Assembly (NCBI GenBank): GCA_028709785.1
Contig: JAQUTK010000008.1
Span: 1-64,000 of the forward strand
DNA from: Bacteroidales bacterium
Lineage (GTDB): Bacteria; Bacteroidota; Bacteroidia; Bacteroidales; JAQUTK01
DNA length: 64,000 bases
Reading direction: 5' to 3'
Shown: positions 9,465-26,811 of the stretch, piece after piece
How the letters are laid out: every line of letters starts with the position of its first letter
Position numbering within the stretch: the stretch's first letter is position 1
The notes under the pieces: generated by a model
What the model saw: the letters and a program-made list of their open reading frames with translations, nothing else
What the model was told of the DNA's origin: nothing
The model's database searches: none
Translations under genes and position numbers: made by a program

Positions 9465-12400
9465 TTATTTCATACGGATAATTTTTGCAGAGTCTTCTCC
9501 TAAACGAATGAAGTAAATCCCATCTGCCTGTCCGGCAAGATCGACGGTTGCTTTGCCCAGGTTATAGACTCCAGTCTGAACAAGTCTTCCCTGAAGATTA
9601 AACACTTCATAGTTTCCGGCTTCACTCTTCAGACCGGTGACAGTGTACACTCCCGTTGAAGGATCCTGATTGACGGAAACCAATCTATGGGATGTAAGTG
9701 ACTGTCCGGTGAGGATCTTATCAAGAGCCAACAACTTCCAGCTTTCGCCAAAGTGATTGTCCATATCGTAACCCTTCAAGGTAAGTCCCTGATTGGAGGC
9801 TTGAATCGTTGGCCATGGCGAGTTATTATTATAAGTTACCTGATCAATTATCATGCCATATTTATCAGCCAGTTGAATCATTTCGCCTTCATCGGCAAGA
9901 CGACCACTCGCCCATTGGTAGATAGGTTCGTTTCTGTTTTCCCAATAGGTAGCAAAAGGATTGGAGGTCACAAACACTTTCTCTTTCGGACTGATAGCAG
10001 TTCCCGCTGGAAATTGAAAGGTTACACCTTTATTAAACATGTAACTATCCAAAGAGATCGGCGTATTTCCCGGGTTATACAAACCGATGAATTCAAGATC
10101 CTCCGTTCCTGCCTCTGTAAAATAGGCGATATCGCTGATCATCACGGAAGGAGCTATTTCCGGTAATGTAATATTCGCACCGATATTGCCACCATCAATA
10201 GCAGTCCCGATGAGTGGCGAACCTGCCAACAGTGAGAAGTCGTAGAAAGTAGGATTGGTGAACATCGGATTGCCAAACAGATTGTTTCCTTCAGGAAGCT
10301 GTTCCGTATCATCAGAAGAATTAGAAATCTGAATCGCAGAGTAATCATCGTTTTGATAACCTGATGTATACGAATTGGATAGTATTGAATTTGTAACCAA
10401 CGCATTGGCTCCCGCATCACCGGCATGTTTCTGATAATTTGCAATGGCAATGTTATTACCATAATAGGTACAATGATCAATCACGACACTGCTTGAGTCT
10501 TTCATTCCGGCACCCATACCACAATTTAAAAAGACCGAGTTGGTAATCCTGGTCGACGATTGCTGACCGATAGATACCCCTTTATCCTGTATGTTATAAG
10601 CTACAATACCGTCTACCACTACCCCTTTGGAATGATCGCCCAGATCCACCGCGTCACTGTTAAATCCGGTGAAATCATGAAAATAAGAATTTGTCACGCT
10701 GGCACTACCTGTCGTCAGATCACCAAAGTCGATCGCATCAACATCAAGCTTATCGTTTCCACTGAATTCACAATGATCTATAAGTACCTTACCGAGTTTC
10801 ACATTCAGAAAGTCAGCACCATCATAATCGGTATGTATCTTGCTATTCGTCAGTGACACCGTAGAATTGTATGCAGCAATAGGATTGTTGTGGATATGAT
10901 CAATGCTGACACTGTCGATAATCACCTGCGAATGCGCAATCGAAAGCGCGGCAAGTTCATAAATAGGTCGTGGACCTTTGGACGCGTTTTCCAGAATGAC
11001 ATTTTTGAAACAGGAAGTGTCGCTCACATTCTTGATACTGATTACTCCCCATTTTTTGTTTGCACTCTCCGGATTACTTTTGAATAGGATCGGTTCTGAA
11101 CCGCTTCCAAGCGCCTGAATTGCTCCCGAAGCAAAGATGGAAACACCGTCCGACATCCAAAGCTCTACCCCAGGTTCAATGATCAGCTTGCCGGTAGAAG
11201 TAATTTGTACGTTATCGGGAACAAGTATCGGTGAACACTCCTTTGAAACAGTGTACTCATCCGAAATCACAGCCGGTAAGATACATTGTCCGTTGTTTTG
11301 GAAAACAGCAGTGACATTCAATGCTGTCGTCGGATGAACGATCAGTTCTTTTGAGGTCGAAATATAACTGCTTGTTACTGAAAGAACAGCAGACAAACCG
11401 AGATTGAAGCTTATATCGCTACTGGTTGCATTTGCCTGATGAACCTCCACTGCTATCACATTCTTTCCGTTCACAAGTAATTTGGGATCGATTTCAAATT
11501 CGATTGTACCAGATGATGTTGAAGCTGCATAAGTAGAATAATAAATAGTCCCAACAGGCATATTCACTCGTTGAACTTCAACACCATCTACATAAACCAC
11601 AGCACCATCGTCATATTTTACGCTCATTGTCAGTTTCTGAATACTCTCTTTGTCTGTCACATCAAGAACCTTCCGGAAATAATACGTAGGATACTTATTG
11701 CTTGAACTTGTGCCATAGCTTAGTGTTGTCTTCTCATCTCCATCGCCATAGCCCATTTCTGCTTCTCCGCTTTTCCAGGAAGAATCGTCATACTCCACAC
11801 TATTCCATGAAGTACCCAAATCACTCCCGGTATCCGAATAGCTCCACGTGCTTCCCATATTTATCAACTGAGTCTGGTCTTTGGATTGCCATCCCATAAA
11901 GGTATAGCCGGCTTTTGGCTCAGCTACAAGTTTGATTTCCTCACCTCCGGGATAACCACCGGTACTATTCGGAACAAGTAACTTCATGCCATTGAAAGTG
12001 AGATTACCTGCATTGGATGGATAGGTCGAGACAGAGACAGATACCGGTGATTGAAAACCAAAGTTTTTCAAATCATTCAATAACAGAGAAGGACGGGCAC
12101 CTATGAATGATTTCATCGCCTCTACCTGAGTCAACCAATAATCTACCGACGAAATCGGGTTTCCATAACTTGAAGAAGTGCCTTTCCAGCGTTCAATATG
12201 ATAGGGTATTTCAGCAGCAATGGTATTCTTATGCAGCTCAATCATTGAATCGATCCTTACCGGATTATACGATGTAAAGAGGTGATTGGCTAGTCTGAGT
12301 CCAAAATACTTTTTATATTCTGCATTGGTCATCAATTGTTTAAAAGGCCATGGGTCTTGACTGATAAAGTAATTAATAAGTCTACTTGATGGACTGAAGA

Positions 12401-13934
12401 AACCACGATCCAGGTCCATGATTATCCATTTCCAGAGTCCCGAATCTTTTGGTTTCCAAGCCATCACGTTATGGTCTACCGAACTATTTCCGCTAATAAC
12501 TTCCGTACAAATCAAGTCTGTAAAGTTTTCAACATCCATCATAGTAGCCAAAGAATCCATATTTTCCTGTACTGTAAGATCCTTTGTCGTATAGAATGTT
12601 TTCAATTTATTGTAAGCGACCAGGTCACCCGCTTCGGCAAAGTCTTCATTTTCCACCATGTCAATCGTCCCCTCTTTTGAGTCGTGATTGCCAATGATAA
12701 AATCTTCATCAATCTTCTCACGGATATTGTGGATACCCATATATTTTCCATTGATATAGACGACACAGGCTCTGAATCCTGAATTATCCAGATCTGTATT
12801 TTCTATGGTCGCATTCTGAATCAAACCATCTCTGAACAGTGTATACGACCAGTCGCTACCGGAAGCTCTCAGCGCAAACGAATCAAAACTCTTGCGATCC
12901 TTATCAAAGATGAGTGGATACTCCAGTTTGCCTGCGCCATAAGCCTTACGGAAATAGACTCCCAACATCTTTTGAGGCAACTTCCAGGAAAACAATCCGT
13001 TAACCTTGACTCCCGCCTGCAGATTGAAAGCTGCCCCATCGCGACCATCATTCTCAAACAGTTCGATATTGACAGGTATTTCCCATTCCGGTTTGAAACT
13101 CTGCGCGTAAATACCAGTACCCGAACTCCAGAAATTATCCGGAGCTGATGATAGAGAGACAATTGGAAGATTTGTGAGCCGGTTAGCGGTATCTATAAAA
13201 TAAGAATTGGTTTTTATAGGCCCCATGACTTGACCAGGTTTATAAATACGTGCTCTCACCACGGTATTTTCTGAAATTTCAATCGGGAAAGAGGCAACAG
13301 GCGATGATACTTTTGGCTCTGATCCATCAAGCGTATAGTGAACTTCTCCACCAAAAATAGTTGACAGTTCGACTGTTACGGGAGTCTTATAAATACCACC
13401 CGCAAGAGAAAAGCTTGGATCACTTAATACCACCCCGTCAAACGCCATTGTCGAATTGGGATTTCCGGGGGTAGAAGTTGTAAAATAGACCCATTCCATG
13501 TTACTATTTCTCCCCATCGAGATATTTGGTTCCTGTACCCCAAAAGTACATGAATCGATGATGGCCTGACCGGGTGATACAATCGCAAGTTCTTCACCGG
13601 AAGCCGATAATTTGAAATTAGTATGAAGACCTGTATCCATACCGTCCGCCCAGATAACCAAATATTGTCCGGGGTGAATGGTCACGTTCGTTTTTATTTG
13701 CCACTTGGTAAGATCATTCAGATTATCGGTGATGTAGTACCCGTTTAATGAAACAGCTGTTGATCCCCGGTTGACTATTTCGATCCAGTCAGCACTCTGA
13801 TCATAATCAGGATCCACGTATGCCCCCGAATTAGAGGCCATAAACTCATTAAGTAACAATTGCGCCGAAACTTGAAAAGAGGCGACAAATAAGATTAGAA
13901 ATAAGGTAATTGTTTTAGTACGTTTCATTTTCAA
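9465..13934 (-). CDS. giant T9SS-secreted CotH-kinase/lamin-tail/beta-helix protein
   Basis: The product is 1489 residues with a signal peptide (MKMKRTKTITLFLILFVASFQVSA); the ATG at 13928 is an alternative start. In order: a lamin-tail domain (about 25-150, LLLNEFMASNSG and DWIEIVNRG); a chitobiase-C/FN3-like domain (about 165-250, VHYTLDGSEP); a CotH-type kinase domain (about 255-640, with RASGSDWSYTLFRDGL, KYMGIHNIREKIDEDF and IIMDLDRGFF); a short InlB-like repeat (GYTFMGWQS); a jelly-roll segment with VYVDGVEV and VIAVEVHQ; a right-handed beta-helix (about 920-1240); a second lamin-tail domain; and a T9SS sorting tail ending DGIYFIRLGEDSAKIIRMK. CotH domains phosphorylate spore-coat proteins in Bacillus. 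Whether this extracellular version is active is not known. Confidence 0.85.
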   Translation of the reverse strand: MKMKRTKTITLFLILFVASFQVSAQLLLNEFMASNSGAYVDPDYDQSADWIEIVNRGSTAVSLNGYYITDNLNDLTKWQIKTNVTIHPGQYLVIWADGMDTGLHTNFKLSASGEELAIVSPGQAIIDSCTFGVQEPNISMGRNSNMEWVYFTTSTPGNPNSTMAFDGVVLSDPSFSLAGGIYKTPVTVELSTIFGGEVHYTLDGSEPKVSSPVASFPIEISENTVVRARIYKPGQVMGPIKTNSYFIDTANRLTNLPIVSLSSAPDNFWSSGTGIYAQSFKPEWEIPVNIELFENDGRDGAAFNLQAGVKVNGLFSWKLPQKMLGVYFRKAYGAGKLEYPLIFDKDRKSFDSFALRASGSDWSYTLFRDGLIQNATIENTDLDNSGFRACVVYINGKYMGIHNIREKIDEDFIIGNHDSKEGTIDMVENEDFAEAGDLVAYNKLKTFYTTKDLTVQENMDSLATMMDVENFTDLICTEVISGNSSVDHNVMAWKPKDSGLWKWIIMDLDRGFFSPSSRLINYFISQDPWPFKQLMTNAEYKKYFGLRLANHLFTSYNPVRIDSMIELHKNTIAAEIPYHIERWKGTSSSYGNPISSVDYWLTQVEAMKSFIGARPSLLLNDLKNFGFQSPVSVSVSTYPSNAGNLTFNGMKLLVPNSTGGYPGGEEIKLVAEPKAGYTFMGWQSKDQTQLINMGSTWSYSDTGSDLGTSWNSVEYDDSSWKSGEAEMGYGDGDEKTTLSYGTSSSNKYPTYYFRKVLDVTDKESIQKLTMSVKYDDGAVVYVDGVEVQRVNMPVGTIYYSTYAASTSSGTIEFEIDPKLLVNGKNVIAVEVHQANATSSDISFNLGLSAVLSVTSSYISTSKELIVHPTTALNVTAVFQNNGQCILPAVISDEYTVSKECSPILVPDNVQITSTGKLIIEPGVELWMSDGVSIFASGAIQALGSGSEPILFKSNPESANKKWGVISIKNVSDTSCFKNVILENASKGPRPIYELAALSIAHSQVIIDSVSIDHIHNNPIAAYNSTVSLTNSKIHTDYDGADFLNVKLGKVLIDHCEFSGNDKLDVDAIDFGDLTTGSASVTNSYFHDFTGFNSDAVDLGDHSKGVVVDGIVAYNIQDKGVSIGQQSSTRITNSVFLNCGMGAGMKDSSSVVIDHCTYYGNNIAIANYQKHAGDAGANALVTNSILSNSYTSGYQNDDYSAIQISNSSDDTEQLPEGNNLFGNPMFTNPTFYDFSLLAGSPLIGTAIDGGNIGANITLPEIAPSVMISDIAYFTEAGTEDLEFIGLYNPGNTPISLDSYMFNKGVTFQFPAGTAISPKEKVFVTSNPFATYWENRNEPIYQWASGRLADEGEMIQLADKYGMIIDQVTYNNNSPWPTIQASNQGLTLKGYDMDNHFGESWKLLALDKILTGQSLTSHRLVSVNQDPSTGVYTVTGLKSEAGNYEVFNLQGRLVQTGVYNLGKATVDLAGQADGIYFIRLGEDSAKIIRMK

Positions 13935-14069
13935 ACAGAATAAAGTAATTTGTCTATCAAAAAGAAATTATAGAATTGGCACAAAAGTCACTACCAATGT
14001 TGAATAAAATCTGAATTAATATATTCTTTAGGAAAATAACAGCGTTTTTTTCGTGTATAACCACAAAAG

Positions 14070-15323
14070 CTATTTGAATGATACCTTAAAACAATGCAAT
14101 CCATCATTATAACTATATTCAATTGTATATTTGTAATACGAACAGATGTTTCTGCATATCTCAAGTCCCAATCCGACACTATGCCTGTCCTTTCCTTGTT
14201 TATGGAAACGTTTAAACAGATTCTCACTGTCTAACGCTCCTCCATTAGATGTGTTCATTATTCTGAAAATACCTGGTTGCAAATAAAAATGAATAAAACC
14301 ACCCTGTGGTGTATGCCGAACGGCATTTGAAATCAGATTGCCAATTAGAATACCAACCAATGTCTTATCGGCATATATCTCTACATTCTTTACACATGAT
14401 ATTGAAACGCGAATTTGTTTCAAATGCATTGCGTCCTGATAAAGAGATATATATTCTGTAATAACTTCATTCAGACGTACTTGTTCCTTCTCAGTAAACT
14501 GATTATTCTCAATTTTGGCTAACAATAATAGAGTCTTGTTTAACTTGCTTATCCGCTGATTAGCGATAGTAAGTGCCTCTATAAGAAGAGCTTGTTCATT
14601 ATTAATGGGCGATGTTTGCATCAGCAGATCCAGATTGCTTTGCATAATTGCGAGCGGAGTCTGCAACTCATGAGCTGCATTTTCGGTAAATTCTTTTTGG
14701 GCAATAAACACTTTATAATTCCTTCCTGTAAGTTCATTTAATGAAGAATTCAGGTCATTAAGTTCGCTTATTTTACTAGCTTTCAATGATAACGGCTCCT
14801 GTTTATCCATCCTATAACTTCGTAATTCATTGAGGGTATGATAAAACGGTATCCAGATTCTTCGGTTTAGTCTGCTATTAATAAATAAAAGAGACAACTG
14901 CAATAAGATCAAGATAATCACTTGCAATACAATGATTGTATTCAAGAGATCTGTATTCTCAATTAAGGATTTCTGGATACGAATATTGTAAGGCTTATCG
15001 TTTATCACGGAGGTACATTCAAGTACCCTGTGAGTGATTGTTTCCTTGTCATCAGGAATAAAGACATCCTGATCAAAAATACGTTCTTTTGTCTCATGTG
15101 ACGATCCCGGACGAATCGTTATATTGTTATTGTAAGAAACAAAATTCTCAGGTAAAGTCGTCAGTAGTTTCTTTTCAATCCATTGTTTTTGAAATCGCAT
15201 ATCTTCATCAATGCTATGCAGCATAACAGCGTGAATAACCATGTAAAAAACAGGGATCGACAGCATGACAATAATACTAGCCATGCCAATATAGCGAATA
15301 GATATGTGATTCGTTAGTTTCAA
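14070..15323 (-). CDS. sensor histidine kinase of an OmpR-type two-component system
   Basis: The 417-residue membrane kinase has transmembrane segments at about 11-32 and 127-148, enclosing a periplasmic domain of about 95 residues. The phosphoacceptor box is ENAAHELQTPL (H218). The ATPase domain shows GNLISNAVRHT and the G2 region SVGLGLEICRNIC. Its start overlaps the regulator stop by 4 nt (ATGA), so the pair is translated together. It should phosphorylate the regulator at 15320-15997 in response to an envelope signal. The linked PepSY and efflux genes suggest envelope or toxic-compound stress, but the ligand is not visible. Confidence 0.92.
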   Translation of the reverse strand: MKLTNHISIRYIGMASIIVMLSIPVFYMVIHAVMLHSIDEDMRFQKQWIEKKLLTTLPENFVSYNNNITIRPGSSHETKERIFDQDVFIPDDKETITHRVLECTSVINDKPYNIRIQKSLIENTDLLNTIIVLQVIILILLQLSLLFINSRLNRRIWIPFYHTLNELRSYRMDKQEPLSLKASKISELNDLNSSLNELTGRNYKVFIAQKEFTENAAHELQTPLAIMQSNLDLLMQTSPINNEQALLIEALTIANQRISKLNKTLLLLAKIENNQFTEKEQVRLNEVITEYISLYQDAMHLKQIRVSISCVKNVEIYADKTLVGILIGNLISNAVRHTPQGGFIHFYLQPGIFRIMNTSNGGALDSENLFKRFHKQGKDRHSVGLGLEICRNICSYYKYTIEYSYNDGLHCFKVSFK

Positions 15324-15997
15324 TTTACTTCAAACTTATAGCCCATGCCATAAATGGATTTAATATAATCATCAGCACCGGCCGCGGCAATTTTCTTCTT
15401 CAGGTTTTTGATATGAGCATAGACAAAATCAAAATTATCAAAGTAGTCAGCACGGTCGCCAGTGATATGCTCTGCTATTGCAGATTTGGATATAACCCTG
15501 TTTTTATTCACCACTAAATATAAGAGTAAATCATATTCTTTGCGGGTTATATCCAACGCAATGTTGTTAATGAAAACCATCTTGGCAACTGTATCAATAA
15601 CTATCTCGTTCACAACAACATTACTACTTCCCTCAAATCTTCGGCGACGAATGACGGCTGAAATGCGGGCGCTTAATTCTGATAGATGAAATGGTTTGGC
15701 GAGATAATCATCGGCGCCAAGATTCAGTCCGTCAATCTTATCCTCGATGGAGTTTTTAGCTGAAATAATGATTACGCCGTCTGTTTTATTGTTTTTCCTT
15801 AATACCTTCAATACATTCAGTCCATTCCCATCAGGCAAAGTAATGTCCAACAAGATACAATCGTATTCAAAGCTTTCCACTTTTTCAAGTGCAAGTTTTA
15901 AATTACCCGCGACTTCACACAGGTAATTCTCTGACTTCAGGTAAGTAGCAATGCTCTCACTCAGCGCTCTTTCGTCTTCTACAATAAGAATTTTCAT
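15320..15997 (-). CDS. OmpR/PhoB-family response regulator
   Basis: The 225-residue product has a receiver domain with the phospho-Asp in LLDITLPDG (D51), the conserved Lys in LAKPF, and a C-terminal winged helix (KEYDLLLYLVVNKN, then HIKNLKKKI and IYGMGYKFEV). Its own promoter carries two ATTCAGAAT boxes 11 bp apart, the one-turn spacing used by dimers of this family. The same box occurs at the PepSY and efflux promoters, so it probably regulates itself and both neighbours. Confidence 0.94.
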   Translation of the reverse strand: MKILIVEDERALSESIATYLKSENYLCEVAGNLKLALEKVESFEYDCILLDITLPDGNGLNVLKVLRKNNKTDGVIIISAKNSIEDKIDGLNLGADDYLAKPFHLSELSARISAVIRRRRFEGSSNVVVNEIVIDTVAKMVFINNIALDITRKEYDLLLYLVVNKNRVISKSAIAEHITGDRADYFDNFDFVYAHIKNLKKKIAAAGADDYIKSIYGMGYKFEVN

Positions 15998-16016: not shown

Positions 16017-16051
16017 CAAATGTATGATTCTATTCTGAATTAATTCTGAAT
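16017..16051 (-). promoter_or_regulatory. autoregulated promoter of the OmpR-type two-component operon
   Basis: On the minus strand, ATTCAGAAT boxes lie at 16051-16043 and 16040-16032, repeating with an 11-bp period. They are followed by TACATTTG (16024-16017), a perfect -7 element. The first base of the first box is 27 nt from the first base of the -7 element. Confidence 0.75.
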
Positions 16052-16149
16052 TTCAATAAAAAGATACTCAATCGCATGTATTTGAACATATTCGAGGAAA
16101 ACGAGGTAAAGATGGAATATTAAACCAATTAATAGTAAATCAGTCTAAA

Positions 16150-16184
16150 ATTCAGAATTTTCATAGATTCTCTTCGTATGTTTG
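16150..16184 (+). promoter_or_regulatory. promoter and operator of the PepSY-like gene
   Basis: ATTCAGAAT (16150-16158) stands exactly 27 nt before TATGTTTG (16177-16184), a perfect -7 element. The second half-site expected at 16161 is poorly conserved. The -7 element overlaps an ATG at 16178, so that codon is not the start; the ATG at 16226 is. Confidence 0.7.
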
Positions 16185-16225
16185 TCACTTTCAATTTCCA
16201 GTATTCATTTAATATCTCAAAAACA

Positions 16226-16687
16226 ATGAAGAAAGTAGTGTTAATCGGAGTGATTGGCTTAGGTTTAGTAGCAGTGAGTGCAGTCGCATTTGCAATCTCA
16301 GAAGGATGCGAGAAGAAAACCGAAGTTCCGGCTGTTGTAAAGACTGCCTTTGAAAAACAATATCCGGGACTAAAAGCCGAATGGAGTGAAGAAGATGGAT
16401 GTTTTGAAGCTGAATTCAAACAAAACAAGAAAGAAATGAGCGCTGTATACGACGCTCAAGGTGTTTTGCAAGAGACAGAAGAAGAAATTACAGTGAATGA
16501 ATTGCCAAAGGCTGTAACCGACTATGTAAATGCAAATAAGTCGGGTAAGATTAAAGAGGCTGCGATAATTACAAAACCGGATGGTACCGTAAATTATGAA
16601 GCTGAGATTAAAGGGAAAGACTTTATGTTTGACGCAACCGGAAACTTTATCCAAATAGCTAGTGAAGGGCAAAAAGTGGAAAAATAA
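16226..16687 (+). CDS. periplasmic PepSY-like (PF11396-type) protein
   Basis: The product is 153 residues with a signal peptide (MKKVVLIGVIGLGLVAVSAVAFA). Two similar halves follow: VPAVVKTAFEKQYPG with AEWSEEDGCFEAEF, and LPKAVTDYVNANKSG with TVNYEAEIKGKDFMFD. This is the pattern of the PepSY-like family of small Bacteroidetes exported proteins, which often sit beside two-component systems. It may bind or buffer a signal for the kinase, but no direct activity is known. It is strongly acidic and has its own terminator. Confidence 0.8.
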   Translation: MKKVVLIGVIGLGLVAVSAVAFAISEGCEKKTEVPAVVKTAFEKQYPGLKAEWSEEDGCFEAEFKQNKKEMSAVYDAQGVLQETEEEITVNELPKAVTDYVNANKSGKIKEAAIITKPDGTVNYEAEIKGKDFMFDATGNFIQIASEGQKVEK

Positions 16688-16709
16688 AATTGGAAATGTA
16701 CTTTTCTCA

Positions 16710-16737
16710 AAAAGGCTATCCCGACAGATAGCCTTTT
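16710..16737 (+). terminator. rho-independent terminator after the PepSY-like gene
   Basis: AAAAGGCTATC (16710-16720) and GATAGCCTTTT (16727-16737) pair perfectly around the 6-nt loop CCGACA. This makes the efflux operon a separate transcription unit. Confidence 0.92.
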
Positions 16738-16749
16738 CGTTCCTTATAA

Positions 16750-16784
16750 ATTCAGAATTAATTCAGAATTCAGTTAGATATTTG
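16750..16784 (+). promoter_or_regulatory. promoter and operator of the RND efflux operon
   Basis: ATTCAGAAT boxes lie at 16750-16758 and 16761-16769 (11-bp period). GATATTTG at 16777-16784 is a one-mismatch -7 element, again 27 nt from the first box. The layout copies that of the regulator promoter. Confidence 0.72.
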
Positions 16785-16809: not shown

Positions 16810-18087
16810 ATGAAACAACTCTTTCACATTAAATTAAGAAGCTGCTTTTTGCTAAGAGCATTCTTAATTACCGGTCTGTCGCTATCCTCACAAGCCTTTG
16901 CACAAGAAGCCAAATCATTGGATGATTATCTTTCACGTGCTAAATCCAACAGTCCGCTCCTCAACGATTACAACAATCAGGTGTATTCCCTCAAGATAGA
17001 CAGTCTGAAACTCAAAGCCGACTATGGATTTCAGGTCGAAGGCTATGGCGATCTTACTTACCCCACATCCATCAACGGATGGGGATATAATGGAAGCCTG
17101 TACACCGAACAAAACCTTGCTGCCATCGTAAGAGTAACCAAAGACTTGCTGGGAAAAAGAAATCTCAACTCACGATTGGCCAATTACAATCTGGAGATCC
17201 AACAAACGCTCAACAAGTCTGAGATTACCATTCAAACACTCAACAGAGCCGTTACAGAACAATACATCCATACGTATGCCAGTCAGCAGCAATACGATAT
17301 TGTAAAAGAGATCGTTCAGCTTTTAGAGCAGGAAGACAATGTGTTAAATGAACTAACTAAAACTGCCGTCTTCAAGCAGACCGATTATCTCACTTTTAAG
17401 GTTATCTTACAGCAAAACTTGTTAGAATTAAAACAGAGAGGCAGCGAATGGCAAAATAATTACGCGACTCTCAATTACCTTTCCGGCATTGTGGATACCT
17501 CCTTGCCAAAGCTTGAGCCACCAACCATGTATGCCGATGATTTCGTTCCATTCGATGAAAGTGTGTATGCCCAAAGTTATCGTACTGATAGCTTGAAGAT
17601 AGCAAATGAAGCCAGGATCATCCAGTATGATTATATACCCCGCTTGTCCGTCTATGCGGATGGAGGTTATTCTTCCGCGCTTGCCAGTGCTCCTTACAAA
17701 AACTTTGGTTTCAGTGCCGGACTCAGTCTGAAAGTTCCCATTTATGATGGAAACAAAAAGAAGAAATTGCTGCTGCAAAACCAAATAGCAGAAGATACCC
17801 GGACAAAATACAACGAGTTCGCAAGAAACCAATACCGCCAACAGATCGTGCAGATACAAGCACAGATAAAGCAATACAATCAAATGATGGAGGTGGCAAA
17901 CGAACAGATGAAGTATGCGGAAACATTGATCGAAGCCAACCCGAAGCAACTGCCCACGGGCGATGTCAAAGTGGTGGACTTCATTCTTTCCATCAACAAT
18001 TACCTCAACCTTAAATCGGGATTGGTACAATTCAAAACTAATCTCTATAACCTGCACAATCAACTACATAATCTAATCATTCAATAG
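16810..18087 (+). CDS. TolC-family outer membrane efflux protein
   Basis: The 425-residue exported protein has a signal sequence ending in SSQAFAQ. It shows the long alpha-helical hairpins and duplicated layout of TolC-type channels (SLDDYLSRAKSNSPLL; SAGLSLKVPIYDGNKKKKLLL). It would form the outer-membrane duct for the adaptor and pump encoded next. The adaptor gene follows after 2 nt. Confidence 0.9.
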   Translation: MKQLFHIKLRSCFLLRAFLITGLSLSSQAFAQEAKSLDDYLSRAKSNSPLLNDYNNQVYSLKIDSLKLKADYGFQVEGYGDLTYPTSINGWGYNGSLYTEQNLAAIVRVTKDLLGKRNLNSRLANYNLEIQQTLNKSEITIQTLNRAVTEQYIHTYASQQQYDIVKEIVQLLEQEDNVLNELTKTAVFKQTDYLTFKVILQQNLLELKQRGSEWQNNYATLNYLSGIVDTSLPKLEPPTMYADDFVPFDESVYAQSYRTDSLKIANEARIIQYDYIPRLSVYADGGYSSALASAPYKNFGFSAGLSLKVPIYDGNKKKKLLLQNQIAEDTRTKYNEFARNQYRQQIVQIQAQIKQYNQMMEVANEQMKYAETLIEANPKQLPTGDVKVVDFILSINNYLNLKSGLVQFKTNLYNLHNQLHNLIIQ

Positions 18088-18089
18088 CT

Positions 18090-19025
18090 ATGAAGATGCC
18101 TACTATTTCTTTCATACTTCTCCTGTCACTCCTGATATTTGCCTCTGGTTGTAACAGTAATCAGTCTGACTCCCATGCCGCAGAAGAGCAACAAGCCGCT
18201 CCCAAAACACCGGTCACAATAGCCTACCCTTCCGATACGGCGCAGTTGAGCAATCAAATTACGCTCAATGCCACGGCTACCTATCTGTTAAAGTCCGATG
18301 TAAAGGCAAACACGATGGGCTACATCACCCGGATGAATATTAAATTGGCCGATCGTGTAAACAGAGGACAGGTATTGTTTGGCTTGCAAACAAAAGAAGC
18401 AAGAGCACTGGGAACCACCATCTCAAAATTAGATTCATCCTTTCGCTTTTCGGGTTTCACCACTGTTGTCAGTCCTGCTTCCGGATATGTAGAGATGGTC
18501 AACCATCAGGTAGGCGATTATGTACAAGATGGTGATATATTGGCAACCATCACCGACGCAAGCAGCTTCGGCTTTGTAATGGATGTGCCCTACGAATACA
18601 ATCAACTCGTCATCCGCAACGGACAGCTGACTGTAAACCTACCCGATGGCAGAAACCTCGTAGGTCAGGTGGCTAAGATAATGCCGGCAGTCAGTCCGGA
18701 GTCGCAGACTCAAAAGGTATTGGTAAAAGTACAAGACGGTGGCAATATCCCGGAAAATCTTATTGCTACCATTCAACTGACCAAACAGAAAGCATCCGGG
18801 ATATCGGTGCCCAAAACCGCTGTTCTGACTGACGAAGCGCAATCTACTTTCTGGGTCATGAAACTGATCAATGACACCACTGCTGTGGAGATTGACATTC
18901 GAAAAGGAATAGAAACAGACGAACGGGTGCAAGTGCTTTCAGAAAACCTTACTGTGAACGACCGCATCATTATATCAGGTAACTACGGATTGAGTGATAC
19001 CGCTTCTGTAATCATTCAAAAGTAA
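18090..19025 (+). CDS. RND efflux periplasmic adaptor lipoprotein
   Basis: The 311-residue product has a lipoprotein signal with Cys21 (LLIFASGC). It shows the split biotinyl-lipoyl hairpin of membrane fusion proteins (KANTMGYITRMNIKLADRV ... SPASGYVEMVNHQVGDYVQ), with an unusually short helical hairpin between the halves. A beta-barrel and a membrane-proximal domain follow (VPKTAVLTDEAQSTFWVMK). It links the pump to the TolC partner. The tight spacing on both sides marks one operon. Confidence 0.9.
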   Translation: MKMPTISFILLLSLLIFASGCNSNQSDSHAAEEQQAAPKTPVTIAYPSDTAQLSNQITLNATATYLLKSDVKANTMGYITRMNIKLADRVNRGQVLFGLQTKEARALGTTISKLDSSFRFSGFTTVVSPASGYVEMVNHQVGDYVQDGDILATITDASSFGFVMDVPYEYNQLVIRNGQLTVNLPDGRNLVGQVAKIMPAVSPESQTQKVLVKVQDGGNIPENLIATIQLTKQKASGISVPKTAVLTDEAQSTFWVMKLINDTTAVEIDIRKGIETDERVQVLSENLTVNDRIIISGNYGLSDTASVIIQK

Positions 19026-19031
19026 ATTGTG

Positions 19032-22000
19032 ATGAAAGAAACATTCTTTGTAAAATACAAAAGCCCCATTCTCATACTCGTACTTTTGATACTGTTTGGG
19101 GGTGCATTCTCCTATACAGAAATCAAATCGGCCTTGTTTCCTGAGATCACTTTCCCTAAGATCAAAGTAATAGCTGATGCCGGACAGCAACCCGTCGATC
19201 AGATGACCATCTCTGTCACTCGTCCGCTGGAGAATGCCATCAAGCAAGTGCCCGACCTAAAAGTTATTCAAAGCACTACCAGCCGTGGCAGTTGCGAGAT
19301 CTCGGCATTCATGTCCTGGAATGCCAATATTGATCTGAGCCAGCAACAGATTGAAGCAAAAATCAACCAGGTCCGCAACCAGTTGCCACCCGACATTGAG
19401 ATCTCCGTCGAAAAGATGAACCCGTCCATTCTTCCGGTCATGGGCTATTCGGTCACCTCAAAGACCATCAGTCCCATCCAACTCAAACAGATCGCCTTAT
19501 ACACCATCAAACCATTTCTATCTCAAGTGCCCGGCGTCAGCGACATCCGGGTGATAGGTGGTCAGGATAAAGAATACTGGGCCATCCTGCATCAGGAAAC
19601 GATGCGACAACTTGGGCTTACACCGGCAAGCATTACAGAAGCGGTAAACAATACCAACTTTATCACCTCCAACGGCTATTCCTCCGACTATCGCTATCTC
19701 TATCTGACCGTTACCGACGCACAACTGCGCAATCAGGAACAACTGAAGAATGTCGTCATCAAAAACGACGGCAACCGCATTATCTATTTTAAAGATATTG
19801 CCGACATCAATGTCCATGAGGCCAAGCAATACATTAAGATAAATGCCAACGGTACCGAAAGCCTCCTGATAGCGGTCGTACAACAGCCAAATGCCAATGT
19901 GGTCGAACTATCCAAAGCGATGGAACAAAAGGTTGTCGAACTCCAAAAGACCTTACCCAAAGACATGCAGTTCACACCTTATTATGTACAGGCAGACTTT
20001 GTGAACGATGCGATCCGCAGCGTCACAGACGCGCTCTGGATTGGTTTGCTCCTGGCAATGATCGTCGCCATCCTCTTCCTGAAATCATGGAAAGCAAGCG
20101 TCACCATCCTCTTGACTATTCCCGTAACCCTGAGTCTTACGATGCTCTCTCTTTATGCCATCGGGCAAACCTTTAACATCATGACACTGGGTGCAATAGC
20201 CGCCTCAATCGGACTAATCCTGGATGATGCCATTGTGGTCGTCGAACAGATACACCGCACACACGAAGAGCATCCCGAAGAGACAAGCCGCACACTGGTG
20301 CAAAAAGCCATCAGCTACCTGCTCCGGGCAATGGTCGGGTCATCTCTCAGTACCATTGTAATCTTCCTTCCCTTTATGCTGATGACAGGTGTTGCAGGAG
20401 CCTATTTTAAGGTTATGACCGACACGATGATTATCACGTTGGTTTGTTCTTTCTTTGCCACCTGGCTATTACTTCCGGTGATCTATCTCTTCCTGACCGC
20501 TCTGATCAAAGACAAACACTTAAACCACCACGAAGTAAAAGAGCGCAAGTGGGTTGGCTTCTTCATCCGCAGACCGATCTATTCCTATCTCTTCATGGCC
20601 GTATTAGTTGTACTTTCTGCATTGATCATACCTACCATCGGCACCGGATTTTTACCGGAAATGGATGAAGGCAGTATCGTGCTTGACTACACCTCCCCTC
20701 CCGGAACCTCTCTGGAAGAGACCGACCGCGAACTGAAAGAAGTAGACAAGATCTTGAAAACCATTCCCGAAGTGAAGTTCTATAGTCGCCGCACAGGCAC
20801 CGAGATGGGATTCTTCATTACTGAGCCCAACAGTGGCGATTATCTGATCCAGTTAAAGAAAGACCGCAACAAAACCACAGAGGAAGTTATTGAGGAAATC
20901 CGTCTGAAGATAGACGCTACCGGGTTACCATTGACCGCCGATTTCGGACAGGTCATCGGCGATATGCTGGGTGATCTGATGAATAGTGTGCAACCGATAG
21001 AGATCAAGATCTTCGGTAACGACGAGAAAGTCCTTCAGAAATATTCCAAACAAGTAGCCGACATTGTAAGCAATGTAAAAGGTACCGCGGACGTGTTTGA
21101 CGGGATCGTGATTGCGGGACCATCCATTCAGGTCACGCCTGATCTTGCTGCTTTGGGACAGTATAACATCACTCCGAAAGATTTCCAATACCAGGTGCAG
21201 ACTCTTCTGGAAGGAAATGTAGTTGGCAATCTGTTCGACACCCAGCAGTTTACCCCTATCCGGATCCTGTATAGCAAGATCAGCAATGCCTCCTTGAACC
21301 AGATTGAAAACAGCAGGATTGCCCTGCCCGGAGGACAATTGAAGCCTTTGAAAGAATTTGCATCTGTCAGAGTCGCCGGTGGAGCAGCGGAAGTACATCG
21401 GGAAGACTTACAGACCCTCGGCATTGTGACCGCACGCTTGGAAAGCAGTAACCTGGGAGGTACGGTAAAAGAGATTCAGAAGCAAATTGAACAGCAGATC
21501 AAACTGCCATCCGGTTATGTAATCGTATATGGCGGAGCTTATGCCGAACAGCAACAATCATTTAAAGAGCTCCTGTTAATCTTGATACTCTCCTGTTTGT
21601 TGGTATTTACTGTAATCCTGTTCTTGTATCGTAACATCAAAGTCGCGATCATCATCTTATTGATCTCTATATTAGGTATCTCGGGCAGTTATATTCTGCT
21701 ATATCTCACAGGAACCCCATTAAACGTGGGCAGTTATACCGGCTTGATTATGATGGTGGGTATCATAGGAGAAAATGCGATCTTCACCTTACTTCAGTTT
21801 TATGAAAGCCATGCCAGCAAGACAAAAGAGCAAGCACTGGTCTATGCCATCAGCACCCGGCTTCGTCCCAAACTGATGACCGCCCTGTGTGCTATCATTG
21901 CATTGATGCCATTAGCATTAGGCATTGGTACCGGTGCTCAGATGCATCAACCTCTGGCTATTGCCGTCATTGGTGGGTTTCTGGTAGCATTGCCCCTCTT

Positions 22001-22049
22001 GCTGATCGTGCTGCCAAGTTTATTAAACAAAGTTGATTTTAAGAAATAA
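19032..22049 (+). CDS. RND-superfamily efflux permease
   Basis: The product is 1005 residues, full length for an AcrB/CusA-type pump; a GTG at 19029 is an alternative start. The first transmembrane segment is followed by a porter domain with FPEITFPKIKV, then transmembrane segments with GAIAASIGLILDDAIVVVE and a second duplicated half ending LPLLLIVLPSLLNK. Such pumps exchange protons for drugs, metals or lipids in the periplasm. The sequence does not show the characteristic metal-binding methionines clearly enough to call the substrate. Expression is probably driven by the OmpR-type boxes at 16750-16769. Confidence 0.9.
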   Translation: MKETFFVKYKSPILILVLLILFGGAFSYTEIKSALFPEITFPKIKVIADAGQQPVDQMTISVTRPLENAIKQVPDLKVIQSTTSRGSCEISAFMSWNANIDLSQQQIEAKINQVRNQLPPDIEISVEKMNPSILPVMGYSVTSKTISPIQLKQIALYTIKPFLSQVPGVSDIRVIGGQDKEYWAILHQETMRQLGLTPASITEAVNNTNFITSNGYSSDYRYLYLTVTDAQLRNQEQLKNVVIKNDGNRIIYFKDIADINVHEAKQYIKINANGTESLLIAVVQQPNANVVELSKAMEQKVVELQKTLPKDMQFTPYYVQADFVNDAIRSVTDALWIGLLLAMIVAILFLKSWKASVTILLTIPVTLSLTMLSLYAIGQTFNIMTLGAIAASIGLILDDAIVVVEQIHRTHEEHPEETSRTLVQKAISYLLRAMVGSSLSTIVIFLPFMLMTGVAGAYFKVMTDTMIITLVCSFFATWLLLPVIYLFLTALIKDKHLNHHEVKERKWVGFFIRRPIYSYLFMAVLVVLSALIIPTIGTGFLPEMDEGSIVLDYTSPPGTSLEETDRELKEVDKILKTIPEVKFYSRRTGTEMGFFITEPNSGDYLIQLKKDRNKTTEEVIEEIRLKIDATGLPLTADFGQVIGDMLGDLMNSVQPIEIKIFGNDEKVLQKYSKQVADIVSNVKGTADVFDGIVIAGPSIQVTPDLAALGQYNITPKDFQYQVQTLLEGNVVGNLFDTQQFTPIRILYSKISNASLNQIENSRIALPGGQLKPLKEFASVRVAGGAAEVHREDLQTLGIVTARLESSNLGGTVKEIQKQIEQQIKLPSGYVIVYGGAYAEQQQSFKELLLILILSCLLVFTVILFLYRNIKVAIIILLISILGISGSYILLYLTGTPLNVGSYTGLIMMVGIIGENAIFTLLQFYESHASKTKEQALVYAISTRLRPKLMTALCAIIALMPLALGIGTGAQMHQPLAIAVIGGFLVALPLLLIVLPSLLNKVDFKK

Positions 22050-22061
22050 CTATTTGAAAGA

Positions 22062-22841
22062 ATGAAAGAAAGAATGAAAACTACCATCACCTCACTCCTG
22101 GTATTATTTAGCATTGCAACATATGCACAAACTGTTCCGTTGCAAGACTCACTTGTTCCAGTTCCACAAAAAGCGACAACTCTCCAAAAGACGAACAAAC
22201 TCACGTACAAAGAATTTATTATCCCGGCAGTGCTGATTAGCTATGGAGCAATCGCATTAGAAAGCGATGGTTTAAAAAACATCAATGATGCAATCCACGA
22301 AGAAATAAATATAGAGCATCCCCATCAATTCCTTCATGTAGATGATTACAGCCAATTTGCACCTGGTGTAGCCGTCTTTGGTTTGCAAGCCTTCGGCATC
22401 AAAGGAAAAAACAGTGCAATGGACGAAGCCATTATTTATGCGATATCAATTGGCATTTCCACAGCAGTGGTCACACCTCTTAAGAGAGCGACCCATGTAA
22501 TGCGTCCCAACAATAGTTCCGACAATTCCTTTCCTTCCGGACATACCACAATAGCATTTGCATCGGCCGAACTTTTAAGAAGGGAATATTGGAATGTCTC
22601 CCCATGGATTGGCGTTGCAGGATATGCCGTAGCTACCGGAACCGGTTTTTTAAGAATGTACAACAACAAACACTGGTTTAGCGATGTAGTAGCTGGCGCA
22701 GGCATTGGTATAGCTTCCACCAATCTGGCATATTGGCTGCATAGTAAGATTAATTGGGGAAAGAAGCACAAACAAACCGCTTCCGTTTTCCCTATTTATG
22801 AAAATGGTGGCTTCGCTGTTGGATTCATCTCACAGTTCTAA
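22062..22841 (+). CDS. PAP2-family phosphatase, last gene of the RND operon
   Basis: The 259-residue exported or membrane-bound protein begins 12 nt after the pump gene; the ATG at 22074 is an alternative start. The acid phosphatase signature is intact: LKRATHVMRP, FPSGHT and FLRMYNNKHWFSDV, supplying the Lys/Arg, Ser-Gly-His and Arg/His-Asp triads. Family members remove phosphate from lipids such as undecaprenyl pyrophosphate or lipid A. Its place in the efflux operon suggests an envelope-remodelling role. It converges on the next LRR gene with a 14-nt gap. Confidence 0.88.
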   Translation: MKERMKTTITSLLVLFSIATYAQTVPLQDSLVPVPQKATTLQKTNKLTYKEFIIPAVLISYGAIALESDGLKNINDAIHEEINIEHPHQFLHVDDYSQFAPGVAVFGLQAFGIKGKNSAMDEAIIYAISIGISTAVVTPLKRATHVMRPNNSSDNSFPSGHTTIAFASAELLRREYWNVSPWIGVAGYAVATGTGFLRMYNNKHWFSDVVAGAGIGIASTNLAYWLHSKINWGKKHKQTASVFPIYENGGFAVGFISQF

Positions 22842-22855
22842 TCATTTTACCTGAT

Positions 22856-23947
22856 TTACAGTATCAACTCAACAGACTTGTCGCCTACATTCACATAATA
22901 TGTTGTTCCGATAGGTAATGAGATTGACAGGAGCAGTGTGCCCAGCGTATCATACACAGAGATGCAATCACCGGTCAGCGATCCTTTGACCTCTATAAAC
23001 GAACCATTATCACACAGGAAAGAGAGCGGCAAAGCAGCCGTTTCCGCTACAGTGATGATATAATCTTCCACGATATTTGTAAACTCCATCCATTCGACAG
23101 CACCGGAATAAGAAAGTTTAGAGCCTCCCGGCACAAACAACTTACAACAATCTTTATTCACAAAGCTGAATCCGTTAAAACTCACAGAAGGAGGAATTGC
23201 ATTCTTAATACGTATCATTGAAAGAAGACGACAATAGGAAAAAGCAAACGTCCCAATAGAAAGGACACTGGATGGAAGAGTAACAGAAGTAAGATTTGAA
23301 CAATAATAGAACGCATTATTCCCGATGGAAGTGACACCCTCAGGGATGGAAATAGTAGATAAAGCTTTACATCCTGCAAAAGCCCATTCACCGATGGAAG
23401 TAACCCCTGCCGGAATCGTGACTGATATAAGCTCCTGTAAACCTGCAAAAGCTCCATTTCCAATTGCTTTGACACACTCGGGAATCTCATAGTCAGTTCC
23501 TTTTGCCTTAGGATAAGCCACGAGAGTCTCATAGTTCTTTGTGAATAAGACACCCTCTATCTGAGAAAATACGGGATGATCATCATCTATACAAAAGTGA
23601 GTCAACTCATTACAGGAAGCGAAAACGCCTGTACCAAAGGAAGATACTGCCAAAGGAATGCTCACTTCTGTGAGAGCATTACACCAGAGAAAGGCAAAAT
23701 CGCCCATTGATGTGATGCTTGGCGGAAACTTTATGGATGTTAGTTCGTGACAATTACGAAAAGCAAAGGATCCGATAGAAGTGACAGTATACGTCGTTTT
23801 ATCGTATGTCACAGTAGCGGGAATCTCAAGAGCACCAGCAACAGGGACCGTGTGAAAAGTAACAGAGACAGATGTTTGATCCGGATTGATTGAATACTGC
23901 AAATCATCAACAGCAAAATAGGACTTGTATGTTTGATTTTTCCCCAT
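22856..23947 (-). CDS. BspA-type leucine-rich repeat protein without a visible signal peptide
   Basis: The 363-residue product has about nine LRR_5 repeats (VTSIGEWAFAGCKALSTI, VTSIGNNAFYYCSNLTSV). The last 65 residues (VYDTLGTLLLSISLPIG, ending KSVELIL) loosely resemble a T9SS sorting tail. The N-terminus (MGKNQTYKSYFAVDD) is not a signal peptide, and an in-frame TAG lies four codons upstream, so no longer version is possible. Either the 5' end has been lost or export uses another route. A perfect -7 element lies about 90 nt upstream. Confidence 0.8.
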   Translation of the reverse strand: MGKNQTYKSYFAVDDLQYSINPDQTSVSVTFHTVPVAGALEIPATVTYDKTTYTVTSIGSFAFRNCHELTSIKFPPSITSMGDFAFLWCNALTEVSIPLAVSSFGTGVFASCNELTHFCIDDDHPVFSQIEGVLFTKNYETLVAYPKAKGTDYEIPECVKAIGNGAFAGLQELISVTIPAGVTSIGEWAFAGCKALSTISIPEGVTSIGNNAFYYCSNLTSVTLPSSVLSIGTFAFSYCRLLSMIRIKNAIPPSVSFNGFSFVNKDCCKLFVPGGSKLSYSGAVEWMEFTNIVEDYIITVAETAALPLSFLCDNGSFIEVKGSLTGDCISVYDTLGTLLLSISLPIGTTYYVNVGDKSVELIL

Positions 23948-24035
23948 AGCCTTCGTCTATTAATGGAGAGAAAAAGAAGTTATTACCTGCCAAAGGAATC
24001 TATTGATCTTCTCTTCTGATTTATTTTGTCACGCA

Positions 24036-24043
24036 CAAATGTA
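24036..24043 (-). promoter_or_regulatory. Bacteroidetes -7 promoter element for the 22.9-kb LRR gene
   Basis: TACATTTG on the minus strand matches TAnnTTTG perfectly and gives a leader of about 80 nt before the ATG at 23947. Confidence 0.5.
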
Positions 24044-24126
24044 GCAGTTTCTTTTGATATTCTGTTCACAAATAAGATTAATTAGTAAAGGAGGAAGTAT
24101 CCCTGCCAACTTACTTGTACATCCGA

Positions 24127-26811
24127 TTATTCTGCCAATATCTTCTTAAACTCTTTCCATTCTTCAGCTTTTGCATAAGCATCTTGCATCCCTTTAGGGA
24201 CATGCAATACACAAGATGCTTTATCCATCTTTTCAAAACCTTTATTACCAACAATTGGAGATGTTGCGCTCAAGACACGCATCTCTTTTATACCATCGCA
24301 TCCTGTAAAGGCAAAGAAACCAATCTCTTTTACATTCTCAGGAAGCGTGATGGAAGCAAGTCCGGCACAACCGGAAAATGCATAAGGACGGATGTTGGTA
24401 ACACTCTTCGGTAGCGTAATAGCCGTGAGATCTTTGCACCCTTCAAAAGCACACGCCTCAATCATTGTGACTCCATCAGGAACAGTGTAGCTCGCGGCTT
24501 TCCCATTGGGAAATGCTATCAGGGTCTTTTTATCCTTGGAAAACAACACTCCGTCTATTACCGCGAAGTCTTTGCTATCCGGAGCTACAACAAACGTTGT
24601 CAAAGCATTGCAACCACTAAGCGCACCATAATCTATATTATTTACACTCGCCGGAATCGATAACATCGTCATTGCTTTGCATCCCTTAAATGGATTCCCA
24701 TTTATCTCAGTGAAGCCTTCCGGAAAAGACATGGAAGTAAGTCCATTGCATTCGGCAAAAGCTTCGTCACCAATGTAGGTAAGGCTCGCAGGTAGTACCA
24801 ATGAAGTAAGACTGCTGCAACTTTTAAAAGCACTGGATCCAATCGTAGTGACTCCCTCCGGAATCTTTACGGAAGTAAGTTTGAAGCATCTTTCAAAAGC
24901 ACAATGACCAATCTCAGTAAGAGCCGAAGGAAAATTGACTGCTGCTAATTTTGTACAGTTATTAAACCCATACGTACAGATCTCTGTAATGCTCTCAGGG
25001 AGTATTACAGAGATAAGAGCACGACAATTAGAAAAGGCTTCCTTCTCAATCTGAGTGATACCGGCGGGAATAGTCACAGAAGTAAGTCCGGTGTAATTAA
25101 AGGCTTTCTCACCAATAGATGTGAGACTGTCGGGCAGTTTTATCTCTCGCAGATAAAAGCATGTCTCAAAAGCACTCTTTCCAATCTTTGTGATATTTTC
25201 CGGCAGTACAATGGTCTCCAGACTCTTCATTTCCTTAAACAGCCCCTCTTCAATCTCATTGACCGGTACTGTATATCCCATATCAGTAATAGATAAAGCA
25301 ACAATCGTAGCATCCTTCAGATTCAAATCCATGAGGATAGGAAGTTCTGTGCGTATCGATGCGATATCCGTATTGTTGATCAGTCCGTGGATAGTTAGTT
25401 TGGACACCTTTTTCAAGTTATCCTTCCCTATCACATTTATTAAAGTGCCTGCTTTCTTCAAAGTCACATCAAAACTGGTGTTGGTTCCTTCTTCAATGAC
25501 ATTAAAGGCACTCCATCCTGTCGCCGAACAATAAGCAGTGCCAGCCGATTTCGGCACAAAAAGAGTAATTGACGGTCGATTGAGATTTTCAAAACTATTA
25601 CTATTTGTGCTCAACGAAGGTGGCGTAGATGCATTGCATAATATCTCTCTAAGATTGTCGCTGAACGAAAAAGCATTATCCCCAATAGATGTTACACTCG
25701 AAGGGATGGTCACAGACTTCAAACTAACACAATTATCGAAAGCTTTATTCCCAATCATTGTGACACCATTGGGAATTGTATAACTTACTGCCTTTGCTTT
25801 TGGAAAAGCCAAAAGAGTCTTCTTGTCTTTACTAAACAAGACACCATCCACCACTGATAACGTCGGATGATTATCCGGAACAATAAACTGAGTCAATGCC
25901 GCACCTCCGGAATAGATATCGTCTGTTATTGTCGTGAAGCTTGAAAAGAAGCCTGAAAGGATTGTCATAGAAGTCAGGCCAGTGCAATCACCAAAAGGAA
26001 ATTTTCCTACCGAAGTAACACTCCGGGGAATTATGATTGAGTAAAGGTTTCGACAAAAACGAAATGCACCATCTTGTATTGAAGTCACTCCTTCCGGAAT
26101 CTCCACTGAAGAAAGATTATTGCAACTTTTAAAAGAATATTTCCCTAACGCAGTGATACCGGAAGGAATAGAATATTCTTTTCTTGTTTTTGCCGGAGGA
26201 TAAGCAGAAAGAGTGTCTTTATGAAACAAGACATCATCTACGACATAATATTCCTGCTCTTTATTTGCAGCAATAAACTGAGACAAGCTACTGCAATCTT
26301 CAAAAGCATCATTTATGGAAGTTAAACTCGAAGGAATCGTCACAGAACTAAGAGCGACGCAACTGCTAAATGCACCTTGACCAATGGAAGTTACCCCCTC
26401 AGTGAGTATAACGTTTCGAAGCGCACGACAATTATTAAATGCGTCAGAGCCGATTGAAGCACTCCCTATCGTCGCGGAAACTAATCCACTGCAATTTTGA
26501 AAAGCTAAATCGCCTAATCTCTTCACACTTTTAGGGATTGTCACGGAGTTCAGTTGATTACAATAACGGAAAGCCTTCTCCCCAATGGAGGTGACAGGAT
26601 AGATCTTACCTTCATAATTTACACTGGCGGGGATAACAATAGTTTGCTCAGAAGTTGAAAAGCTGTTTTTAAATAAAGCGCTTTTTCCTGTTACACTTAC
26701 CGAGATGCTGTCGGCATTTTTGGAATACTTCAAAAGATCAACCTCAAAAGCGGATGAATATGTTGCCAAAGCAACCAACATGCTGAAGGAAAGAATGAAT
26801 GCTTTTCTCAT
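24127..26811 (-). CDS. large BspA-type leucine-rich repeat exported protein
   Basis: The 894-residue product has a signal peptide (MRKAFILSFSMLVALATYSSA) and more than twenty LRR_5 repeats in two blocks. A non-repeat insert of about 70 residues lies near 450-520 (FDVTLKKAGTLINVIGKD). Both blocks contain a plug segment, DGVLFSKDKKTLLAFP near 325 and DGVLFSKDKKTLIAFP near 770, so the protein arose by internal duplication. The C-terminus is LRR-like (CVLHVPKGMQDAYAKAEEW) with no T9SS tail or lipobox. Adhesion is the usual role of the family. The plug motif also occurs in the neighbouring 22856-23947 protein, so the two are paralogues. Confidence 0.87.
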   Translation of the reverse strand: MRKAFILSFSMLVALATYSSAFEVDLLKYSKNADSISVSVTGKSALFKNSFSTSEQTIVIPASVNYEGKIYPVTSIGEKAFRYCNQLNSVTIPKSVKRLGDLAFQNCSGLVSATIGSASIGSDAFNNCRALRNVILTEGVTSIGQGAFSSCVALSSVTIPSSLTSINDAFEDCSSLSQFIAANKEQEYYVVDDVLFHKDTLSAYPPAKTRKEYSIPSGITALGKYSFKSCNNLSSVEIPEGVTSIQDGAFRFCRNLYSIIIPRSVTSVGKFPFGDCTGLTSMTILSGFFSSFTTITDDIYSGGAALTQFIVPDNHPTLSVVDGVLFSKDKKTLLAFPKAKAVSYTIPNGVTMIGNKAFDNCVSLKSVTIPSSVTSIGDNAFSFSDNLREILCNASTPPSLSTNSNSFENLNRPSITLFVPKSAGTAYCSATGWSAFNVIEEGTNTSFDVTLKKAGTLINVIGKDNLKKVSKLTIHGLINNTDIASIRTELPILMDLNLKDATIVALSITDMGYTVPVNEIEEGLFKEMKSLETIVLPENITKIGKSAFETCFYLREIKLPDSLTSIGEKAFNYTGLTSVTIPAGITQIEKEAFSNCRALISVILPESITEICTYGFNNCTKLAAVNFPSALTEIGHCAFERCFKLTSVKIPEGVTTIGSSAFKSCSSLTSLVLPASLTYIGDEAFAECNGLTSMSFPEGFTEINGNPFKGCKAMTMLSIPASVNNIDYGALSGCNALTTFVVAPDSKDFAVIDGVLFSKDKKTLIAFPNGKAASYTVPDGVTMIEACAFEGCKDLTAITLPKSVTNIRPYAFSGCAGLASITLPENVKEIGFFAFTGCDGIKEMRVLSATSPIVGNKGFEKMDKASCVLHVPKGMQDAYAKAEEWKEFKKILAE

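Follow-up and report, generated by a model that had tools for sequence, protein, structure and literature searches.

What joins three neighbouring promoters that serve, respectively, a two-component system (TCS), a small PepSY-like protein and an export pump? The question is raised by a 64,000-nucleotide stretch of DNA from a Bacteroidales bacterium (hereafter the window), in which each of these promoters carries the same word, ATTCAGAAT, at the same distance from its core. On the minus strand, the window encodes an OmpR/PhoB-type response regulator of 225 aa (15320-15997) with the receiver domain (Response_reg, 7e-28) and the winged-helix domain (Trans_reg_C, 4e-16) that define this family. 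Its gene is overlapped by that of a sensor histidine kinase (14070-15323, minus strand), which belongs to the NCBIfam PorY family (NF052314, 432.7 bits for a curated cut-off of 350). Divergent from this TCS operon, on the plus strand, lie the gene of the PepSY-like protein (16226-16687), which has an N-terminal signal sequence and matches PF11396 just under the gathering score (E 2.6e-6), and the pump genes. The latter code for a TolC-type outer membrane efflux protein (16810-18087; PF02321), a periplasmic adaptor subunit (18090-19025; PF16576, PF13437), an RND permease (19029-22049; ACR_tran, 663 bits) for which multidrug and metal models compete as the substrate class, and a PAP2 phosphatase (22062-22841; PF01569), which closes the probable RND operon. 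Beyond it, on the other strand, positions 22856-26811 encode two leucine-rich-repeat proteins that look BspA-like by eye.

The TCS promoter, read on the minus strand, contains two exact copies of ATTCAGAAT 11 bp apart, at 16043-16051 (box 1) and 16032-16040 (box 2), followed by the -7 element TACATTTG (16024-16017). On the plus strand, the RND promoter repeats this arrangement with boxes at 16750-16758 and 16761-16769 and the -7 element GATATTTG at 16777-16784, while the PepSY promoter has one exact box at 16150-16158 (21.9 bits with the matrix built from orthologues) and the -7 element TATGTTTG at 16177-16184. The PepSY gene is taken to start at the ATG at 16226, as the longer open reading frame, which starts at 16178, would overlap the -7 element. 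A terminator-like hairpin (16710-16737, plus strand), made of an 11-bp stem and a T-rich tail, separates the PepSY gene from the RND operon; the pump therefore needs a promoter of its own, the one carrying the operator. An earlier note on this DNA had listed these five boxes and a constant distance of 27 nt from the first base of box 1 to that of the -7 element, and both the coordinates and the distance are exact in all three promoters. It had allowed the PepSY promoter a single box; one good box is indeed present, but a second, degenerate half-site, TCATAGATT, occupies 16161-16169 (plus strand), in the register where orthologous PepSY promoters have a good second box.

That such constant geometry is hard to ascribe to chance is borne out by the numbers. 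The probability of finding two further promoters at the identical offset is about 4e-6 when the density of NAnnTTTG in the window is used (0.0019 per position), and about 3e-5 with the density of the two intergenic regions instead. Exact copies of ATTCAGAAT number six in the window, the sixth lying within coding sequence (12813-12821), versus 1.8 (sd 1.2) expected by chance, and none of 100 shuffles reached six. The three -7 elements resemble TAnnTTTG, the consensus of the ordinary housekeeping -7 element in Bacteroides (PMC7366714). None of the TCS, PepSY and RND promoters has a TTG where the -33 element usually lies, and scans for sigma-70-type promoters did no better than on shuffled sequence.

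The genome-wide scan for tandem ATTCAGAAT pairs that the earlier note had proposed found, with 0 to 2 mismatches allowed in 3.55 Mb, only the TCS and RND places. In the same genome, a search with the full model likewise gave significance only to the TCS (E 3e-5) and RND (E 8.5e-5) sites; owing to its poor second half-site, the PepSY site falls short of significance when taken alone (E 3.3). The third-best site genome-wide (20.6 bits, E 0.10, which is borderline) is a probable fourth operator and promoter at 13982-14016 on the minus strand, composed of ATTCAGATT (14016-14008), ATTCAACAT (14005-13997) and the -7 element GACTTTTG (13989-13982). It lies upstream of the gene that comes after the kinase gene (9465-13928, minus strand) and encodes a CotH-kinase/lamin-tail protein (PF08757, PF00932) with a weak type IX sorting domain (PF18962, under the gathering score). 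This site is probably a weaker member of the shared-operator set, and the operator appears nearly confined, in its own genome, to this locus plus the probable CotH-type promoter.

Regulator orthologues were found in 101 of the 295 Bacteroidales genomes sampled, and the comparison set comprised 104 loci (1.53 Mb) whose regulators are 43-66% identical. The kinase gene is adjacent to the regulator gene in nearly all of these loci, and a PepSY-like gene is close by in many, often in the order regulator, kinase, PepSY; the TCS, PepSY and RND pump genes remain neighbours in several other families, and one genome (G261) has a divergent layout identical to that of the window. The exact word ATTCAGAAT is not conserved in the orthologous loci, where only a degenerate pattern is kept; searching the 295 genomes for it gave one extra match, upstream of hemA, and a scan of genome contigs returned mostly unrelated regulators from other phyla. 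The diverged half-sites upstream of the regulator gene nonetheless keep the 11-bp repeat and the 27-nt spacing, as in CTTTAGATTTA CTTTAGAAT tagattt TATATTTG. From an initial matrix seeded with sites chosen by eye, a 35-nt composite matrix (box, 11 bp, box, TAnnTTTG) was refined on the sites of the relatives. It found 141 sites above 18 bits in the 1.53 Mb, whereas shuffled DNA gave 2 and the reversed matrix 1. In held-out halves of the set, 26/52 and 28/52 loci exceeded the 99% null level, versus 2-3% of random 200-mers. The composite site precedes the regulator's own gene in about half of the 104 loci; autoregulation would thus not be universal, about half of the orthologous regulators having no recognisable site before their own gene.

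When box pairs were scored without the -7 element, a strict TAnnTTTG followed at +27 in 41 cases, at +28 in 9 and at any other offset in at most 2, with a box matrix trained on regulator-gene sites that had been picked with their -7 element, the PepSY and hemA sites being outside the training. The 27-nt spacing, exact in the three promoters of the window, is therefore the majority state in relatives, a minority having 28 nt. One Bacteroidales clade (L247, L250, L251, L253) has the -7 element at 28 rather than 27 nt before the regulator gene. Operators precede both the regulator and the PepSY gene in 34 loci of relatives, and in other Bacteroidales families orthologues also keep the tandem operator and its spacing before these two genes. 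These comparative data argue that the boxes are a real operator.

A further line of evidence connects the letters of the boxes to the adjacent regulator. Of all residue-base pairs compared over 54 loci, K197 and position 4 have the highest corrected mutual information, and this is so for both boxes; in box 2, lysine goes with C in 39 loci and without it in 1, C occurs without lysine in 1, and neither is present in 13. To explain T at position 4, about 4-6 changes have to be placed on the tree, with one exception (L241), and with so few independent changes and a counterexample the count-based p of 2e-10 overstates the coupling, the direction of which is clear. H195, or Q at this residue, covaries with box position 1. 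An alignment to solved response regulators places K197, like H195, within the winged-helix stretch HIKNL, which faces HIHNL of PmrA/BasR and is the predicted recognition helix of the family. Moreover, the regulator and PepSY operators agree in 14.1 of 18 letters within a locus and in 11.7 between loci, the maximum in 2000 shuffles being 12.9. That box letters are shared through ancestry only was considered and set aside, being opposed by the residue-base coupling and by the tree, on few changes. K197 is accordingly put forward as a candidate specificity residue.

The genes behind the 141 best sites extend the list of predicted targets. Most code for the regulator (54) or the PepSY-like protein (51), and the others include hemA, TonB-type receptors, PAP2 phosphatases and BOF proteins. 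PAP2 genes have an operator of their own in L220, L068 and, weakly, L202. BOF-type small periplasmic proteins lie behind the operator in L231 and L248, with a Pfam match for the latter, which is reminiscent of ygiW, the neighbour of qseBC in enterobacteria. The operator precedes hemA, the gene of glutamyl-tRNA reductase, in L148, L278, L284, L309-L312, L316-L319 and L326. A genome-wide model search of 25 relatives had, beyond the surroundings of the regulator, yielded further hemA sites and one HmuY-family gene (PF14064), which has a good operator in front of it and is remote from the regulator locus (L302; G125 C7:6760-6794, minus strand). With a threshold of 12 bits, the hemA promoter carries a site in 17 of the 19 genomes that have the regulator and in 2 of the 8 that do not. 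In G107 and G099, the site is present although hemA and the regulator are on different contigs. As for the two genomes with a hemA site and no regulator, G084 is an incomplete assembly and G070 shares its genus with the regulator-bearing G173, making it possible that its orthologue was overlooked.

Other explanations of the boxes have to be weighed against this evidence. Chance repeats within AT-rich intergenic DNA might be invoked, given that ATTCAGAAT is itself AT-rich and that the window holds 56 one-mismatch matches for 37 expected; after the shuffled and reversed-matrix controls, the conservation across many families, the strict spacing, the genome-wide uniqueness and the residue-base coupling, such an origin is hardly credible. 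The operator could instead belong to another regulator, for instance a second response regulator, of which the adjacent one would merely be a target, and the genome does encode several further OmpR-type regulators (21 matches). However, the box letters track K197 and H195 of the adjacent regulator, hemA sites co-occur with its orthologues, and the -7 element is of the ordinary housekeeping type (PMC7366714), which makes this reading very unlikely.

The boxes might also be a genuine operator of the adjacent regulator that serves mainly for repression, a regulator bound over the -33 region and the spacer blocking RNA polymerase until the signal lifts the block. Box 2 is placed downstream of the usual -33 position and ahead of the -7 element, which would suit a block, and HaeR of Porphyromonas gingivalis has been reported as both activator and repressor (PMC3764172). 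Yet the same regulator acts positively on its own gene (PMC3764172), promoters without a -33 TTG at the usual spacing look activator-dependent, and a fixed spacing of 27 or 28 nt is expected for contact with sigma but unnecessary for a steric block. Mainly repressive action therefore seems unlikely.

We prefer, and hold with considerable confidence, the reading in which the adjacent regulator has its operator in the ATTCAGAAT boxes and, once phosphorylated, would activate the TCS operon together with the PepSY-like gene and the RND-PAP2 operon, and probably also the gene of the CotH-type protein. The boxes are a head-to-tail pair of half-sites, about 11 bp apart, and the promoter core follows them at a constant distance. 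Activation by PmrA and PhoB relies on direct repeats that they bind across the -33 region, at a set distance from the core of the promoter. Owing to the conserved composite site, its spacing and the K197 coupling, the regulator very probably binds the boxes and would activate from the -33 region in the manner of PmrA or PhoB. All the sequence evidence, from the conserved operators and the neighbouring genes to the coupling of K197, agrees with the claim of the earlier note that the regulator governs the PepSY-like gene and the pump as well as itself. Position, spacing, conservation, gene layout, co-inheritance and residue-base coupling are computed results; binding itself, activation rather than repression and the signal discussed below are inferred, and phosphorylation dependence is proposed because the binding geometry is like that of PmrA and PhoB. 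According to this model, the PorY-family kinase would phosphorylate the OmpR/PhoB-type regulator, which would bind as a dimer, its subunits lying head to tail on the two half-sites at their 11-bp distance and K197 of the recognition helix reading box position 4. The bound regulator would cover the -33 region at its fixed distance from the -7 element and recruit the sigma factor, leading to expression of the targets listed above. Since the PepSY-like protein would share the control of its sensor, one may speculate that it provides feedback or serves as an accessory sensor.

PmrAB/BasRS uses half-sites in direct repeat, 11 bp apart and located ahead of the -10 element. PmrA is also the closest curated model to the regulator of the window (169.7 bits, for a PmrA/BasR equivalog cut-off of 330), which scores below the curated cut-offs of both PmrA and QseC, and BasR/PmrA ranks second among the solved structures aligned to it. 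The window differs from PmrAB/BasRS, and from QseBC, by its half-site, its Bacteroidota -7 element and the PepSY-like and hemA targets. The nearest described system, as likened by published description and gene layout, appears to be HaeSR of P. gingivalis (PG0719 kinase, PG0720 regulator) with the lipoprotein PG0717. As in HaeSR, the OmpR-type regulator and kinase of the window adjoin a gene of the PepSY_like/DUF2874 family, DUF2874 being presumably the old name of PepSY_like (PF11396). PG0717 was described with DUF2874 domains, and HaeSR is reported to be hemin-activated and autoregulated, its regulator binding its own promoter at a site for which no motif was given; its targets include TonB receptors, an outer-membrane efflux protein and heme genes (PMC3764172). 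A footprint of PG0720 in P. gingivalis was also reported without a motif (PMC8757827). Autoregulation would be a shared trait, deduced in the window from the operator before the regulator gene, whereas the PepSY gene and the pump are divergent from the TCS, unlike in HaeSR. A literature search for the motif string returned no match.

The kinase, through its membership of the NCBI PorY family, also recalls PorX/PorY of P. gingivalis, which responds to hemin; there, however, PorY is encoded far from PorX, which has a PglZ/alkaline-phosphatase-like domain and is not autoregulated (PMC8050853). The kinase of the window is no orphan: its gene overlaps the OmpR-type regulator gene, the two being adjacent in nearly all of the loci compared, and the system seems to be autoregulated. 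All 19 kinases tested beside orthologous regulators (L048-L065 and the window's own) fall in the PorY family, a name that may mislead annotation.

As the hemA and HmuY genes of relatives share the operator and HaeSR responds to hemin, heme or tetrapyrrole load could be what is sensed, or else an envelope stress linked to it. The window's own genome (G000, rated 99.8% complete) has no hemA above the model cut-off, so that the heme link is made by analogy, and heme as a firm signal was set aside as unproven. Iron limitation induces two PepSY-like genes in Bacteroides thetaiotaomicron (PMC10434189); taken with the hemin responses of HaeSR and PorX/PorY, this makes heme or iron status a plausible input. 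More tentatively, and with the odds rather against it, PorY-family kinases as a class could be heme/tetrapyrrole sensors in Bacteroidota, their usual partner being this OmpR-type regulator, which would read a TTCAGAAT direct repeat to set hemA, HmuY, PepSY-like proteins and export pumps, with the PorY-PorX pairing of P. gingivalis as a derived exception.

Beyond what the earlier note had proposed, the analysis points to an order-wide operator, to hemA and PAP2 targets in relatives and to a CotH promoter in the window. A TCS family that is widespread in Bacteroidales, and whose members in the literature found are known only from HaeSR and PorY of P. gingivalis, with no motif reported, thereby gains a sequence-level operator, a promoter geometry of fixed spacing and a candidate residue for specificity. 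If K197 reads position 4, a K197N substitution would move the preference of the regulator from TTCAGAAT to TTTAGAAT half-sites. With the matrix, regulons can be predicted in environmental as well as gut species, and the connection proposed here of heme genes with PepSY-like proteins and efflux pumps becomes open to direct test.
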